In this document: positions 3,559-10,004 of the stretch, in pieces
Numbering within the stretch: position 1 is the stretch's first letter
How the letters are laid out: every line of letters starts with the position of its first letter
Assembly: GCF_030244015.1 (NCBI RefSeq)
Contig: NZ_JASSYX010000001.1
Span: 930,001 to 994,000, forward strand
Length of the DNA stretch: 64,000 nt
Reading direction: 5' to 3'
Origin: Pedobacter ginsengisoli
Lineage (GTDB): Bacteria; Bacteroidota; Bacteroidia; Sphingobacteriales; Sphingobacteriaceae
Notes under the pieces: generated by a model
What the model was told of the DNA's origin: nothing
What the model saw: only the letters and a program-made list of their open reading frames with translations
Databases searched by the model: none
Position numbers and translations under genes: made by a program

Positions 3559-4454
3559 TGCTAAGATACGCCGCAATAGATATAGGTTCAAACGCAGTCA
3601 GGCTGCTCATCGCTGATATATCAGGTACAGAAGATGGTTTCAGCTTCAAAAAAAATACACTCATCCGCGTACCGCTGCGGCTGGGCGACGACGCATTTCT
3701 TGACCACCACATCTCAGACCGGAAGGTCGATGACCTGGTCAAAACCATGACTGCCTTTAAAAATCTCATGGATGTTTACCACGTATCAAAATACCTGGCC
3801 TGCGCAACATCAGCCATGCGGGAATCTGACAATGGCCAGGAAATCATCAGGAAGATAAAACAGGTCACAGATATTGATCTGGAGATCATAGCAGGTCAGC
3901 GGGAAGCCAATATCATTTACTCCAATCATATTGAGGAAAACCTGGACGCCAACAAAAGCTATCTTTATATCGATGTAGGCGGTGGCAGTACCGAACTTTC
4001 TGTATTCGTCAACAAAGTTCCTGTAGCCTCTAAATCATTTGACATCGGAACCATCCGTATCCTCGACAACCAGGACAAAGATGAAACCTGGGAAGACATG
4101 AAGCAATGGGCAAAAAAACATACCAAATCTCTGAAGAATGTAGCAGGGATAGGTACGGGCGGCAACATCAATAAACTCTTCAGGATGTCCGGTGAGAAAG
4201 AAGGGACGCCCTTATCCTTCATCAAACTAAAAGGAATGCACAATGAACTGAACAACCATTCCCTGAAAGAAAGGATCAGCATTTACGGCCTCAATCCCGA
4301 TCGTGCAGATGTAATCGTTCCTGCATGCGAAATCTACATCACGCTGATGAAATGGACCGGTATCAAACAGATCTACGTGCCCAAAGTGGGTATGGTCGAC
4401 GGCATCATCAACCTGCTGATCGAAGAAAACCTAAGCCCTGTATCCTATAAATAA
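3558..4454 (+). CDS. ppx: Exopolyphosphatase, Ppx/GppA family
   Basis: This 298-residue protein has the actin/hsp70-like fold signature: phosphate loop 1 AAIDIGSNAVRLLI near the N-terminus and DVGGGSTELSVF in the middle, then GTGGNINKLF. Ppx enzymes remove terminal phosphate from polyphosphate, and GppA enzymes hydrolyse pppGpp; the short form without a C-terminal HD domain and the fused position behind ppk1 favour polyphosphate. The last 10 bases overlap the end of the convergent phosphopantetheinyl transferase gene, leaving no room for an ordinary intergenic terminator. Confidence 0.92.
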   Translation: MLRYAAIDIGSNAVRLLIADISGTEDGFSFKKNTLIRVPLRLGDDAFLDHHISDRKVDDLVKTMTAFKNLMDVYHVSKYLACATSAMRESDNGQEIIRKIKQVTDIDLEIIAGQREANIIYSNHIEENLDANKSYLYIDVGGGSTELSVFVNKVPVASKSFDIGTIRILDNQDKDETWEDMKQWAKKHTKSLKNVAGIGTGGNINKLFRMSGEKEGTPLSFIKLKGMHNELNNHSLKERISIYGLNPDRADVIVPACEIYITLMKWTGIKQIYVPKVGMVDGIINLLIEENLSPVSYK

Positions 4455-4906
4455 GCAAGCGCGAGATACCTGCCGTGGTGGCTTACAGACTGCGGGTTTG
4501 AGATCCTGTATTCCTTGTGATAATCCATTATTTTGACAGATGCCCTGTCCAGCTCATCTTCCTGATCTGCCGCCAGTGTATGAATATAATCTTCACTGAT
4601 CTGACTTTGAGTGTAGTAGAGCAGCCCGTCACACAGCACATTTCCTGTAGCCTTGTTGTTGTGAATGATCAGGTTCTTGCAGACCAGTTTCACAGGAGCA
4701 AACAAACGCAGCTTCGTCTCTCTTGAATTGATCTTATAAGCCGATTCCTTCATGCTCCACAAGAGCCAGACCATTGTAGGAGGCTGGATGTCTGAAGAGA
4801 TCAGGAACTGCTCCTCCGGGGTAAAAAGCTTATCCAGAAAACCATTTCTTTGCCAGTTGCTGTCTTTGGCGGCCTGCATCAGGTCCACAATATCATTGCC
4901 TATCAT
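4445..4906 (-). CDS. 4'-phosphopantetheinyl transferase superfamily protein
   Basis: The 153-residue product starts MIGNDIVDL and has WSMKESAYK at residues 50-58. These are the two signature blocks of phosphopantetheinyl transferases, with Asp5 and Glu54 as likely magnesium ligands. The enzyme moves phosphopantetheine from CoA to the serine of a carrier protein. Its start overlaps the stop of the upstream acyl carrier protein gene by four bases (ATGA), so a dedicated carrier-activating pair is likely. It is the last gene of the biosynthetic cluster that runs from 10004. Confidence 0.85.
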   Translation of the reverse strand: MIGNDIVDLMQAAKDSNWQRNGFLDKLFTPEEQFLISSDIQPPTMVWLLWSMKESAYKINSRETKLRLFAPVKLVCKNLIIHNNKATGNVLCDGLLYYTQSQISEDYIHTLAADQEDELDRASVKIMDYHKEYRISNPQSVSHHGRYLALAYL

Positions 4907-5157
4907 TGTTGTACCAGTTTAGTTTCTATGATGTCTATCGATGCGCCTACATTAAGCATCTTTTCCATAGAAAGGTTGTCAATGACGATACCAAATTCCT
5001 CTTCCACATCCAAAACGATATCCACCAGATTTGCCGAATTGATCCTGAGGTCCTTTATGAAATCTGTAGCCTCATTCAGATTTTCCAGTTGGTCTTTGTC
5101 TTCCACATAAGTTGATACTATCGGTTTCAGACGTGCTATTATTTCTTCTCTATCCAT
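4903..5157 (-). CDS. Acyl carrier protein of the type III PKS cluster
   Basis: This 84-residue acidic protein has the acyl carrier protein pattern: helix 1, a loop, then LRINSANLVDIVLDVEEEFGI leading helix 2, and IDNLSMEKMLNV for helix 3. The expected phosphopantetheine site is Ser41. The usual Asp-Ser-Leu around it is Asn-Ser-Ala here, which marks it as a specialised carrier and not the housekeeping AcpP. The gene is squeezed between the ketosynthase (stop one base upstream) and the phosphopantetheinyl transferase (4-base overlap). Confidence 0.87.
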   Translation of the reverse strand: MDREEIIARLKPIVSTYVEDKDQLENLNEATDFIKDLRINSANLVDIVLDVEEEFGIVIDNLSMEKMLNVGASIDIIETKLVQQ

Positions 5158-6429
5158 TTAACTGTACTTTTTAAAGATCACACAGGCATTCACATCACCA
5201 AAACCAAAGCTGGCCTTCGCTACAATGTTCAGGTCTGTACTGATCATTTTTTGAGGAATCCTGACCTCATCTACCATTGTCATTATTTCAGCGTTCAAAT
5301 CCTCGCAGTTCACATTCGGAAATATAAATCCATGGTGCAGCTGCAATACAGATGCCACACTTTCTATACTTCCTGCAGCGCTCAGACAGTGCCCTACGGC
5401 AGACTTCAAAGAATTGATATAAGGAAAATCAATGCCGCTTCTTCCCAGAGCTTCACACCAGTTGCGGATCTCCACAGCGTCCTTGCTTGTCGCTGTCAGA
5501 TGGCCATTTATGGCATTTACCTCAGCCGCACTTATCCCCGCATCCGCCAGCGCATTTTTGATACAGCGCTGTACAGCCGAAGGATTTGGCGCAGTCATGG
5601 TCCCGACACCTTTTTGTCCGCCCGAGTTGATGTGCCCGCCCAGCACTTCCGCATAAATTACAGCACCCCGCCGCAAGGCACTTTCCAATGATTCCAGTAT
5701 CAATGCCCCCGCGCCACTTGCCGGTACAAAACCACTCGCCGTCGCACTCATCGGTCTCGAGCCTTTTTCCGGATCAGCATTGTGTTTATAGGTGCAAACT
5801 TTCATGGCGTCAAATCCACCCCATACATAAGGCCCGCCGTCACTTGTACTGCCGCAGAGCATTCTCAGTGCCCTGCCACATTTGATGCGCTCATAAGCCA
5901 TTAAAATGCTTTCAGCGCCGGTCGTACACGCGGATGAGTTTGTAGTCACCTGGTTTCCCAGTCCCAGCTTGCCGCCCAAAAAAGCGCTGATACCGCTTGC
6001 CATCGTCTGGACTACCGCTGTACTGCCCAGCTTGCGGATCTGCAGGTCATCAATTTTATAAACAGACTCCCTGAATTTGTCAATCCCCGAAGTCCCCGCA
6101 CCAAATACGGTACCACTGTCCCAATCGGGTTCTTCACCAGCGGAAACAGGGAGTCCAGCATCCTTCCAGGCGTCCATCCCGGCTATAACTCCATAAAGAA
6201 TGCCCGTGCTGTTCAGGCTTTTAAGCTCCAGTTCAGAAAAATACTGCGCAGCAAGCTCAGCAGAAACCGAAGGCTTTCCTGCGATCTGGCAGGAAAACAG
6301 CAAACGCTCCAGTTCCGGATCATGTTTAATTCCCGAATGTCCGTTTTTCAGGGCTTCAGTAAACAATGGCAAGCCCACCCCATTGGGGGCCACCACACCT
6401 AATCCGGTAATTACGACCCTGTTATGCAT
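5158..6429 (-). CDS. Beta-ketoacyl-ACP synthase (FabF/KAS II type)
   Basis: The 423-residue thiolase-fold condensing enzyme keeps a full Cys-His-His triad: C168 in NSSACTTGAES, H310 in INGHLTATSKDAVE and H347 in KSAVGHCLSAAGS. It condenses malonyl-ACP with an acyl chain. The length and the glycine-rich ending ASFGFGDVNACVIFKKY fit FabF-type enzymes. It overlaps the dehydratase gene upstream by 8 bases and abuts the ACP gene. In this context it probably builds or extends the acyl starter used by the type III polyketide synthase; that role is inferred. Confidence 0.92.
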   Translation of the reverse strand: MHNRVVITGLGVVAPNGVGLPLFTEALKNGHSGIKHDPELERLLFSCQIAGKPSVSAELAAQYFSELELKSLNSTGILYGVIAGMDAWKDAGLPVSAGEEPDWDSGTVFGAGTSGIDKFRESVYKIDDLQIRKLGSTAVVQTMASGISAFLGGKLGLGNQVTTNSSACTTGAESILMAYERIKCGRALRMLCGSTSDGGPYVWGGFDAMKVCTYKHNADPEKGSRPMSATASGFVPASGAGALILESLESALRRGAVIYAEVLGGHINSGGQKGVGTMTAPNPSAVQRCIKNALADAGISAAEVNAINGHLTATSKDAVEIRNWCEALGRSGIDFPYINSLKSAVGHCLSAAGSIESVASVLQLHHGFIFPNVNCEDLNAEIMTMVDEVRIPQKMISTDLNIVAKASFGFGDVNACVIFKKYS

Positions 6430-6868
6430 TCATTTTATTAGTCACCATACCTGCTATTGTGCCTTTGCACACTACATCACCCGCGGCATTGATCATTTGA
6501 ACAGTACAGTTTAATTTCTTGAAACGGAAATATACTTTTTCTGCTTCCACTCTTACCTTTTCACCCGGAAACACCGGTTTCATAAAATCGATAGCCGTAG
6601 AAGTCAGCATGACATGTCCCGGCATTCCGCCTTCAGCACTGCCGGATAAATAGATGCCCAGGCATACCAGGCCGATCTGGGCCATAGTTTCCGTCAGAAT
6701 CACACCCGGAGTCACCGGACTGTCTTTAAAGTGACCTTGATAAAAGTCCAGACCTGCATCAAAAGTATAAGTCCCGATTGCCCTGTTCTCATCAATTTCC
6801 AGCAGTTCATCTACAAACAGAAAAGGCTTTGAATAGGGCAGGTGTGCTAAAATTTCTTCTTTATTCAT
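6422..6868 (-). CDS. 3-hydroxyacyl-ACP dehydratase, FabZ-like hotdog protein
   Basis: The 148-residue protein has the FabZ hotdog layout: LPYSKPFLFVDELLEI at residues 10-25, then YQGHFKDSPVTPGVILTETMAQIGL, with catalytic H46 (GHF) and E60. Such enzymes dehydrate 3-hydroxyacyl-ACP to trans-2-enoyl-ACP. It overlaps the ketosynthase start by 8 bases, so the two are translated together. No ketoreductase or enoyl reductase gene is in the cluster, so those steps would have to come from the housekeeping fatty acid pathway, or this protein may act only as a thioesterase-like hotdog. Confidence 0.85.
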   Translation of the reverse strand: MNKEEILAHLPYSKPFLFVDELLEIDENRAIGTYTFDAGLDFYQGHFKDSPVTPGVILTETMAQIGLVCLGIYLSGSAEGGMPGHVMLTSTAIDFMKPVFPGEKVRVEAEKVYFRFKKLNCTVQMINAAGDVVCKGTIAGMVTNKMNA

Positions 6869-7016
6869 GTTTAAAATTAATGTTCATTTAATATCGGACT
6901 TGCAGCGCACTAAAGTATTTATTTTAATCGTGATTTCACTATCGTCCCTGCCATTGTTGTTCCCGCCACCGTTGCCGCCTTCATGTACCCGTGCCAGTTA
7001 CCGCCGTTGCTACTGT

Positions 7017-7090
7017 CGTCATTGCGAGGAGTTCTTCACGACGAAGCAATCTCAGCTGGTCCGGAGATTGCCCTGTACCTCGCAATGACG
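7017..7090. repeat. REP-like imperfect palindrome
   Basis: The arm CGTCATTGCGAGG (7017-7029) is perfectly inverted as CCTCGCAATGACG (7078-7090). Inside it a second pair, GCAATCTC (7046-7053) and GAGATTGC (7064-7071), is also perfect. The whole can fold as one long two-part hairpin. The CGTCATTGCGAGG core is the same as that of dispersed repetitive extragenic palindromes seen in many bacterial genomes. It sits in the 237-base gap between the polyketide synthase and the dehydratase, where it could limit read-through or protect mRNA ends. Confidence 0.85.
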
Positions 7091-7105
7091 GGAACTATAT
7101 GCCGT

Positions 7106-8158
7106 TCACCACTTCAGCAATATACGCTGCGCGGAAAATCCCGGTCCGAAGCTCAGCATCAAACCGATATCTCCGGCAGCGGATTTTCCTGACATATACC
7201 TTTCCAGCACATACAATACAGTCGCACTCGACATATTGCCATAAAGCCGCAAAACGTCCTTCGTATCATCGATGTTCTTGCCCAGGCTACCAAACAGACC
7301 CTCCACAAGCTGTACAATTTTTTTTCCCCCCGGATGAAAGATCAGGTGGTCTACCTCAGCAATGGTCAATCCATGTTTTGCCAGAAACGGGTGGATGATG
7401 TCCGGAAAATTTGCATCAATAGTTTCGGGAACAGCAACATCCAGTACCATTTGCAGGCCGCTGTTGACCAGTTTAAATCCCATTAACTGTTCCGCATCAT
7501 AAAAATGATACATTTCCTCAGCAATGATTTCCGGCCCCTCATCATCAGCATGTGAGGACAACAGCACACAAGCCGCACCATCACCAAATATGGCCGCACT
7601 GACCACATTCACCATCGAATAGTCATTCAGCTGAAAAGTAGCCGTAGGCGATTCATAAGCAATCACAGCCGCCCGCTTTCCGGGATTAGCCTGCAAGAAA
7701 TTCTTTGCGTAGATCATACCCGATACCCCGGCTGCGCAGCCCATTTCTGTTACCGGCAAACGTACAATGTCCTGGCGCAAACCCAGTATATTGATGAGGT
7801 AGGCATCCAGAGAAGGGATCATAATGCCCGTGCAGCTCACTGTAATGATATAATCAAGATCCGCAGGCGCCCAGCCAGCCTTTTCCAGTGTCTGCCGCAG
7901 GCAGGCACCTGCCAGCTTAATTCCCTCCCTGACATAAATATCATTCCGTTCCTCAAATGAGCTCGGCGCAAACACTTCCTCCGGCGACATGACCGAATAC
8001 CGCTGCTCAACCCCCGCATTTTCAAAGATCTTGATCACCTTTTTGACAAAGCGGTCATCCTGCCCCTCCAGCCAGCCCCTTAAATACGGAATGATCTCCG
8101 CGGTTTTTCTTGAATATTGGGGCAGCAGCTTTGAAACAGTCTTTATCTTAACGCTCAT
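7106..8158 (-). CDS. Type III polyketide synthase
   Basis: The product, 350 residues from the ATG at 8158, is a chalcone/stilbene-synthase-fold enzyme with the full catalytic triad: Cys141 in EMGCAAGVSGM, His275 in FHPGGKKIV and Asn308 in LYGNMSSAT, plus the SFGPGFSAQ loop near the C-terminus. Such enzymes extend an acyl-CoA or acyl-ACP starter with malonyl-CoA and cyclise the chain to pyrones or resorcinols. An in-frame TTG at 8167 directly after the methyltransferase stop would add three residues; the ATG is preferred. It is flanked by a methyltransferase and an FAD oxidoreductase, the same trio of functions as the Streptomyces srsABC phenolic-lipid operon. Confidence 0.93.
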   Translation of the reverse strand: MSVKIKTVSKLLPQYSRKTAEIIPYLRGWLEGQDDRFVKKVIKIFENAGVEQRYSVMSPEEVFAPSSFEERNDIYVREGIKLAGACLRQTLEKAGWAPADLDYIITVSCTGIMIPSLDAYLINILGLRQDIVRLPVTEMGCAAGVSGMIYAKNFLQANPGKRAAVIAYESPTATFQLNDYSMVNVVSAAIFGDGAACVLLSSHADDEGPEIIAEEMYHFYDAEQLMGFKLVNSGLQMVLDVAVPETIDANFPDIIHPFLAKHGLTIAEVDHLIFHPGGKKIVQLVEGLFGSLGKNIDDTKDVLRLYGNMSSATVLYVLERYMSGKSAAGDIGLMLSFGPGFSAQRILLKW

Positions 8159-8167
8159 AGAAAACAA

Positions 8168-8899
8168 TCATCGGGTAAAAATGACCCACTGGTAGCGGAA
8201 TGCCCATTTCCAGCGGATCAGGTATTTTTTTAAATTTAATTGCCGCGAATAACCCAGCAAGTCCTTATGTTTAAAGCCCCTCAAAATAGAGGTAAGCCCA
8301 TCATCTCGCGACATGCTGTTCAAACCAAAGACCAAACAGATCAGTTTGAACAAATAATAAGCAACAGCACTCCTCTGCAGGTCATTCACCACTACGCCCA
8401 ACCTTGCTTTGCCGATAAAACCCTCCATCAGCCCGAGCAGCGCAGCATCCTTAAAATGATGCAGTGTCAGTGTACACAGAATAACATCATAAGCCCTTTC
8501 TTGTTTAATCTCCTCAAAAATATCTGCGCACACATAGCTGATATTCCCGTAAGCTGAGGACAATTTCCTGGCATGGCCGATGGTGAATTCATTGGCATCT
8601 ATGCCGGACAACTGAAACCGCAGGCCCTTTTTATATCCATATTCCGCCAACACCCTCAACATATCACCATTTCCGCAACCCACATCCAGTATCGAAATCT
8701 CCCTGTCCGTTTCAGCATTCAGGAGCCGTTCCACACCTTCCAGTGTCACCGCATTGCCTCCCAGCAGCTTATTGATGCTTGCGATTTTATCCAGCGCGTC
8801 CCTCAGGACTTCCCCTTCCATAGCAAAATCATCCATGAGCTCAGGCGCATCACTTCTTTCTTTAGTATTTACGAATATTTTACCGAACAGGTTGTCCAT
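8168..8899 (-). CDS. SAM-dependent class I methyltransferase
   Basis: From the ATG at 8899 this is a 243-residue protein with the glycine-rich SAM motif ISILDVGCGNGDML near residue 80, an acidic loop (SGIDANEF) and a CADIFEEI/YDVILCTLTLHHF segment typical of the UbiE/class I fold. A TTG at 8914 would extend it by five residues. It overlaps the upstream FAD oxidoreductase gene by 20 bases and ends about 9 bases before the polyketide synthase start, so the three are co-translated. The likely substrate is a hydroxyl or ring carbon of the polyketide-derived phenol; this is inferred from position. Confidence 0.87.
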   Translation of the reverse strand: MDNLFGKIFVNTKERSDAPELMDDFAMEGEVLRDALDKIASINKLLGGNAVTLEGVERLLNAETDREISILDVGCGNGDMLRVLAEYGYKKGLRFQLSGIDANEFTIGHARKLSSAYGNISYVCADIFEEIKQERAYDVILCTLTLHHFKDAALLGLMEGFIGKARLGVVVNDLQRSAVAYYLFKLICLVFGLNSMSRDDGLTSILRGFKHKDLLGYSRQLNLKKYLIRWKWAFRYQWVIFTR

Positions 8900-10004
8900 G
8901 TGTTCTTTTAACAATGAGCGGCAATACAGCCGGAAGTTTAACCAGGAGCTTTAGCAAAGATCCGAATAACCATTTTTTTCTTACTATTGCCGAAAGCATC
9001 CGGCCCGTTGCCATTCTGCCTTTAAAATTCAGCTCCCATGCTTTGCCGTACCTATACTCCAGTTCCGCCCGGGAAAGGGATCCCTCCAGGTATTCCATGC
9101 ACAGTTCCGCGCAAATCTTAGCGCTATGTATCGCCATAGCCATACCGTTTCCACACAGCGGATGGATTACGCCAGCAGTGTCGCCGATCATCAGTACATG
9201 GTCGTAGACCGCTTCTTTCGCTTCAAAAGAAACCTGACTGATGGTCAGCGGCGCATCGAACAGAGGTCTGCTTTGCTCAAATACATTTTTCAGCAAAGGA
9301 TTCTTATAGAGCACCTGACGCTCAAATTCATTCGTATTCTTATACACCTTGAAGTTTTCGTAATCCGTAAGGTAACAAATATTGATCAGCCCATTTTCAA
9401 CTTTTGATACACCGCAATAGCCCCCATCAAAATTATGCAGTCCAACAAGCCCGTCGGGAAATTTTCCTTTATAATGCCCTTTTACCGCAAGCCAGGGTGA
9501 CCGCTGCTGTATAAACGGCCTTGCCAGTTTCTGGTCCGGAACAGCCCTTTTGCCATACGCACCAATGACCAGCCCCGCTTTAAAAGCACCTGAAGCATTC
9601 GTAAAAACCTCAAAGGAATCATCTTTAAACACAATCGAACCTACCGTATCGGTGATCATTTTACAGCCCAGTTCCAATGCTCTTTTATACAGTAAATGGT
9701 CCAGCACATACCTGCTCAGCCCAAAACCTCCCAAAGGCAGCTTGCAGGAGATCTCTTCCCCCTTGGGAGAAGAGAAGTTTAAATGGTTGATGGGCACAGC
9801 ACCAGATTCAAAAGGATCGATGCCAAGAACCGACAGGTAGGGCAGCACCTCATTGGAAACATACTCTCCGCAAACCTTGTGGTGCGGATAAACCGTCCGT
9901 TCTATCAAAATCACCCCTACGCCCGCTTGCAGCAAATGTATGGCGCAGGTCAGACCAGCCAATCCGCCCCCTGCTATAACTACATCATCATCAGTTTCTC
10001 TCAT
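8880..10004 (-). CDS. FAD-dependent oxidoreductase (geranylgeranyl reductase / aromatic hydroxylase type)
   Basis: The 374-residue protein begins with a Rossmann dinucleotide site, VVIAGGGLAGLTCAIHLLQAGVGVILIER, and later has the second FAD block LMIGDTAGVIHPLCGNGMAMAI that defines group A flavin hydroxylases and geranylgeranyl-reductase-like enzymes. It is the first gene of the minus-strand cluster and is 88 bases from the divergent rhamnosidase gene. In the phenolic-lipid context it would hydroxylate the ring to a hydroquinone or quinone, or reduce a double bond. The sequence alone does not decide between these. Confidence 0.85.
   Translation of the reverse strand: MRETDDDVVIAGGGLAGLTCAIHLLQAGVGVILIERTVYPHHKVCGEYVSNEVLPYLSVLGIDPFESGAVPINHLNFSSPKGEEISCKLPLGGFGLSRYVLDHLLYKRALELGCKMITDTVGSIVFKDDSFEVFTNASGAFKAGLVIGAYGKRAVPDQKLARPFIQQRSPWLAVKGHYKGKFPDGLVGLHNFDGGYCGVSKVENGLINICYLTDYENFKVYKNTNEFERQVLYKNPLLKNVFEQSRPLFDAPLTISQVSFEAKEAVYDHVLMIGDTAGVIHPLCGNGMAMAIHSAKICAELCMEYLEGSLSRAELEYRYGKAWELNFKGRMATGRMLSAIVRKKWLFGSLLKLLVKLPAVLPLIVKRTHGQPVR

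Follow-up and report, generated by a model that had tools for sequence, protein, structure and literature searches.

Seven contiguous minus-strand open reading frames (ORFs) of Pedobacter ginsengisoli form an operon that joins a type III polyketide synthase (PKS), a methyltransferase and a flavoprotein to a ketosynthase (KS), a dehydratase (DH), an acyl carrier protein (ACP) and a 4'-phosphopantetheinyl transferase (PPTase). They lie at 4445-10004 in the ORF list of the window, by which we mean the whole 64,000-nucleotide stretch analyzed (contig NZ_JASSYX010000001.1, positions 930,001 to 994,000; the assembly has 7 contigs and 4.83 Mb). The operon is real and widespread, and its two halves belong together. 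Judged from the protein sequences, a dissociated miniature fatty-acid synthase (mini-FAS), comprising the KS, DH, ACP and PPTase and in relatives an enoyl-ACP reductase (ER), is inherited with the PKS, flavoprotein and methyltransferase. We predict that the operon probably encodes a single pathway to a phenolic lipid, in which a chain made by the mini-FAS on a private ACP would pass to the PKS and then be tailored. The parts are known, and the way they are arranged is new among operons of the phenolic-lipid type; we found no earlier description of the seven-gene operon in the open-licence literature searched.

A PKS scan of bacterial genomes gave 325 relatives, and the best 80 were kept as homologous loci. 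All seven genes occur in the same order and on the same strand at 74 of the 80, so the arrangement is more than chance. Four of the six deviating loci (L016, L037, L062 and L071) are short contigs with an incomplete set, and at L003 the methyltransferase was missed by tblastn, yet it is present as an ORF. The remaining locus, L069 from P. insulae, has only the flavoprotein, methyltransferase and PKS genes. Many Pedobacter and Flavobacterium species carry the operon.

Within the genus, a PKS ortholog (E up to 1e-150) was found in 113 of 145 genomes and a KS ortholog (E up to 1e-140) in the identical 113. The two genes share a contig in 111 of these genomes, 431-1262 nt apart. One exception (G489) is a 300-contig assembly whose PKS contig is apparently the 4.5-kb L016; the other is P. 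insulae (G432), which keeps both halves, with an intact DH-KS-ACP-PPTase set on a different contig from the PKS trio. In a sample of 395 genomes from the phylum, the top tier of PKS matches comprises 33 genomes (at least 588 bits; the remainder score at most 245 bits), and KS matches above 650 bits occur in the identical 33. Both the shared distribution (113 of 145 and 33 of 395 genomes) and the retention of an intact cassette in P. insulae, where the halves are unlinked, argue for one pathway. Because the genomes that have one half are exactly those that have the other, we did not adopt chance proximity of two tandem pathways as the main reading. A sequence-only reading of this DNA had proposed that the ACP-containing half works with the PKS, and had named halves that never co-occur as one observation that would count against it; both halves are present in 113/113 carriers in the genus and 33/33 in the phylum sample, which supports the proposal.

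For comparison, we chose 20 second-tier type III PKS loci, mostly the best-scoring, from 241 lower-tier genomes and searched them in six frames. At none of these non-orthologous loci did the surrounding 7 kb or so contain a KS, DH, ACP or PPTase; methyltransferase and flavoprotein matches occur at three (in two the flavoprotein match is weak, 32-33 bits), and a weak reductase match at one. The trio itself is thus more widespread, and being linked to the cassette sets this PKS group apart, which also speaks for one pathway. The cassette-free trios would also suit an account in which two pathways share one transcription unit, with the PKS trio acting on ordinary acyl-CoA or housekeeping acyl-ACP and the cassette making a separate product or topping up the supply. 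Cassette-free trios are also published for Planctomycetota and Cyanobacteria, cassette-type modules occur without a PKS in five of the 395 genomes, and the halves are unlinked in P. insulae. However, neither half was found alone in the ortholog group, even when they are unlinked, and we consider two separate pathways rather unlikely.

Three further observations favor a single pathway. Across the 74 loci, the seven proteins show correlated pairwise distances (r 0.52-0.85; for each pair, none of 200 permutations was as high). In relatives that have it, the reductase gene lies between the two halves. The residues that we take to be catalytic are intact and invariant among the 14 sequences aligned for each family, namely PKS C141/H275/N308 (presumably the Cys-His-Asn triad), KS C168/H310/K342/H347, DH H46/E60 and ACP S41.

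Table 1. Genes and the inter-half gap of the operon, from its 5' to its 3' end (window coordinates).
Feature	Coordinates	Strand	Family matches and signatures
Flavin adenine dinucleotide (FAD)-dependent oxidoreductase/monooxygenase-like flavoprotein, 374 aa	8880..10004	-	Pfam FAD_binding_3; NCBIfam
S-adenosylmethionine-dependent methyltransferase, 244 aa	8168..8902	-	Pfam Methyltransf_25; NCBIfam
Type III PKS, 350 aa	7106..8158	-	Pfam Chal_sti_synt_N and Chal_sti_synt_C
Gap, slot of a FabL-like ER in relatives; inverted repeat here	6869..7105		
FabZ-like 3-hydroxyacyl-ACP dehydratase (DH), 148 aa	6422..6868	-	Pfam FabA; NCBIfam FabZ
FabF-like KS, 423 aa	5158..6429	-	NCBIfam FabF; signature GHLTAT and GFGD
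ACP, 84 aa	4903..5157	-	NCBIfam acyl carrier models; serine 41 in INSANLVD
PPTase, ACPS-type, 153 aa	4445..4906	-	Pfam ACPS

The ORFs and family scans confirm the seven functions that the sequence-only reading had assigned (Table 1). DH and KS overlap by 8 nt and ACP and PPTase by 4 nt, and the only sizeable gap in the operon divides the PKS half from the KS/DH/ACP/PPTase half. The PKS ORF spans 7106-8167 with a probable start at the ATG at 8158; the methyltransferase ORF (8168-8914) extends to a TTG at 8914 and contains an ATG at 8902.

The PKS scores above the cut-offs of Pfam PF00195 and PF02797 and is a type III PKS. Its best sequence matches among distinct solved enzymes are PKS11, then RppA and CylI. 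A Foldseek search with its AlphaFold model (pLDDT 85) placed CylI first (TM score 0.91, 26% identity), with PKS11 also among the closest solved folds. The ring type is pulled two ways by these folds, since the CylI structure was solved with a resorcinol product and PKS11 makes alkylpyrones. Among NCBIfam families DpgA scores best, with 170 bits, far under the equivalog cut-off of 425, and a DpgA-like identity was set aside. This match, and the second place of RppA, would suit a PKS that uses a small starter or malonyl-CoA alone, with the cassette acylating the core later. We regard this as very improbable: besides the low DpgA score, the leading matches by sequence (PKS11) and by fold (CylI and PKS11) are lipid-chain enzymes, and none of the seven genes was identified as an acyltransferase that could act later.

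The flavoprotein is geranylgeranyl-reductase/UbiH-like (best NCBIfam match TIGR02032, 97 bits against a cut-off of 159) and the methyltransferase is UbiG/UbiE-like (PRK06202, 139 bits against 243). A type III PKS adjoining a methyltransferase and an FAD oxidoreductase is the composition of hid/srs-like phenolic-lipid operons, srsABC being a trio of just these three functions, and the likeness drawn in the sequence-only reading holds for gene content. No named flexirubin family such as FlxB is among the matches listed for the seven proteins (for the flavoprotein, the best 25 of 61).

In the other half, the KS scores 259 bits against NCBIfam FabF, below the equivalog cut-off of 493.75, and the DH 71.7 bits against FabZ, below the cut-off of 113, so neither is classed with the housekeeping enzyme. 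The KS carries HLTAT/GFGD where FabF has HGTST/GFGG. The DH matches Pfam FabA at 51 bits and the PPTase matches Pfam ACPS at 42 bits. The ACP scores at most 36 bits against NCBIfam acyl-carrier models, and no Pfam family matched it at 0.001. Elsewhere in the genome, profile searches found four more KS genes, two more ACPs and one more FabZ-like gene, and the cassette therefore duplicates housekeeping steps. The three KS paralogues compared, a set that leaves out L082, lack HLT[AGS]T/GFGD-type changes. On contig C2 of this genome (G000, about 537-541 kb) a further KS and ACP and two short-chain dehydrogenase/reductase (SDR) matches occur (L084, L170, L177 and L179); this cluster is perhaps a pigment or polyene pathway.

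Pfam and NCBIfam family scans identified no ketoreductase (KR) or malonyl transacylase (MAT) among the operon genes, so that "self-contained", as the cluster had been called, was too strong. The accompanying statement that no reductase is present holds for the operon in the window but not for the family, since a FabL-like ER occurs in 12 of the 33 phylum carriers, directly behind the PKS every time, and in 5 of the 113 genus carriers (four checked at the locus, the fifth a partial copy on L016). In distant genera this additional gene has about 265 codons and lies between PKS and DH. FabL is its best NCBIfam family in all five proteins scanned (117-170 bits; runner-up 93-135 bits); because the equivalog cut-off is 328, we call it FabL-like rather than FabL. 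Among solved structures FabL 3oic matches best, at 144 bits, followed by one at 100 bits. Y167 and K174 are invariant among 14 aligned sequences, with the spacing Y-x6-K that is the active-site signature of FabL ERs and that 3oic shares. We set aside the possibility that this SDR is a KR on these sequence grounds: the FabL matches (five of five in NCBIfam, and the best in the PDB) and the Y-x6-K spacing.

A quickly built PKS tree has 117 rows: 15 with the reductase, 97 without it, one without an adjacent cassette, and four outgroups. In all 15 carriers the gene follows the PKS and precedes the DH (in one the contig ends with the DH out of view). The reductase state changes at least seven times on this tree, and four or five of the changes are forced by well-supported branches. 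Because the gene occupies one and the same slot throughout, repeated loss is the simplest explanation of the changes. The position of the reductase in the exact gap between the halves suggests that the ground plan of the family is directed at a saturated chain. The other 21 phylum carriers have no reductase match at 1e-50 genome-wide. Relocation within the P. ginsengisoli genome was also considered and set aside: no reductase was found elsewhere, the best profile match being 79 bits.

A KS and DH without an ER, as in 97 of 112 scored rows of the tree, could make an unsaturated or polyene tail, and loss of the reductase, with its seven changes, could have replaced an alkylresorcinol product by an alkenyl- or polyenylresorcinol. 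The genome-wide absence of a reductase match in the 21 carriers, and the 79-bit best match here, agree with such a shift. However, the loss may be chemically silent: a housekeeping ER can equally step in, because the family always borrows other fatty-acid synthesis steps (KR and MAT). We consider an unsaturated product unlikely.

Several observations on this locus and the tree are recorded separately. The gap between PKS and DH contains a 13-nt perfect inverted repeat at 7017-7090, with CGTCATTGCGAGG at both ends (7017-7029 and 7078-7090); the arms are the only two copies in the window, with 0.04 expected. About 90 other Bacteroidota genomes of the phylum sample have a more distant reductase homologue (best copy 212-294 bits), perhaps a housekeeping FabL-like enzyme. 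The operon is interrupted in two distant genomes by GIY-YIG and MepB-like ORFs (L152 9441-9818 and L160 8491-9015). The contig with L062 is binned as Candidatus Nitrotoga and branches among Flavobacterium rows on the PKS tree; the assignment to Nitrotoga is probably a binning error. At its 3' end the operon is flanked by polyphosphate kinase and Ppx/GppA phosphatase genes, both of which are found there in 18 of 80 relatives.

For the single pathway that we favor, we propose that the PPTase would convert the ACP to holo-ACP, on which the KS and DH would assemble or extend a special acyl chain. KR and MAT, and in this lineage the ER too, would be borrowed from housekeeping fatty-acid synthesis. 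The type III PKS would take the ACP-bound chain, add malonyl units and cyclize it, most likely to an alkylresorcinol. The flavoprotein may then hydroxylate the ring and the methyltransferase methylate it, giving a methoxylated alkyl-hydroquinone or quinone lipid. There are precedents for these steps in the sources cited: expressed PKSs of Planctomycetota methyltransferase/oxidoreductase/PKS operons gave alkylresorcinols (PMC10896814), ArsA passes acyl chains from its ACP domain to ArsB and ArsC and germicidin synthase draws on acyl-ACP (PMC6274091), hierridin has been proposed to start from a C14 acyl-ACP (PMC8086630), and polyketide quinones serve as electron carriers (PMC9927152).

Some points weigh against this proposal. 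PKS11, the closest PKS by sequence, is an alkylpyrone enzyme, and the product may be a pyrone. Of 15 distant operons, 5 yielded no PPTase, which is either absent there or has diverged beyond detection. Co-occurrence and correlated distances may partly reflect shared descent, and they do not separate function from descent. In the passages cited, the Planctomycetota work assumes CoA-ester starters and assigns the flavoprotein no definite role (PMC10896814), and surveys of Flavobacteriaceae already count type III PKSs as 9% of clusters, there given without structure (PMC7440613).

Five more of the 395 genomes have KS matches of 506-588 bits with no type III PKS alongside. The KSs of these unlinked cassettes share the HLT plus A/G/S and GFGD changes. 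Two of the sets (L146, 8.4-17.6 kb, and L147, 8.2-17.8 kb) are reductase-DH-KS-ACP-PPTase cassettes; the neighbors in L146 are a KASIII-like gene, a BtrH_N/DUF4872 protein and an ABC transporter, and the ORFs of L147 show the same succession of lengths. L148-L150 are DH-KS-ACP sets without a type III PKS, with a reductase in L148, and those in L148 and L149 adjoin glycosyltransferase-2 and GNAT-like genes. As a tentative generalization, a portable dissociated mini-FAS of Bacteroidota (FabL-like ER, FabZ-like DH, HLT[AGS]T/GFGD KS, private ACP and often a PPTase) could feed a special acyl-ACP to varied partners, with loss of the ER acting as a tail-saturation switch in the PKS branch. The partner would be a type III PKS here, and elsewhere a BtrH-type acyltransferase with an ABC transporter, or a glycosyltransferase with a GNAT protein.

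The usual account of type III PKSs is that they work without carrier proteins, and here one is coupled to a dissociated mini-FAS with its private ACP, in an operon that is near-core in a large environmental genus. The small separate proteins make the transfer of a chain from an ACP to a type III PKS testable, and operons with and without the ER are a natural experiment on tail saturation. The products may be unrecognized membrane or redox lipids of Bacteroidota.

In the Planctomycetota alkylresorcinol operons and cyanobacterial hidABC, too, methyltransferase and FAD oxidoreductase genes adjoin that of a type III PKS, but in the passages cited these operons are described without a dedicated KS/DH/ACP/PPTase set or an ER (PMC10896814, PMC8086630). 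The Azotobacter ars system, as described in the cited text, resembles the operon in having a dedicated fatty-acid synthase whose carrier domain passes chains to type III PKSs; ArsA is a multidomain synthase, whereas the operon encodes separate proteins and an incomplete set (PMC6274091). A multidomain synthase of the ArsA/ArsD type is absent, as the operon has only single-domain proteins. Streptomyces srs and actinobacterial polyketide-quinone clusters use type III PKSs to make alkyl quinones, some of which the cited source gives as alternative electron carriers (PMC9927152). The operon differs from these clusters in its private ACP cassette and its phylum, and for it a quinone product is a prediction. 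Bacillus FabL (PDB 3oic) is the best match to the reductase of relatives and shares its active-site spacing, and the window has no such gene. CylI, of the cyanobacterial cylindrocyclophane pathway, is a resorcinol-forming type III PKS and the closest in fold to the PKS here, yet at 26% identity. CylI draws on a carrier-bound chain, supplied upstream by a fatty acyl-AMP ligase (FAAL) and a modular PKS.

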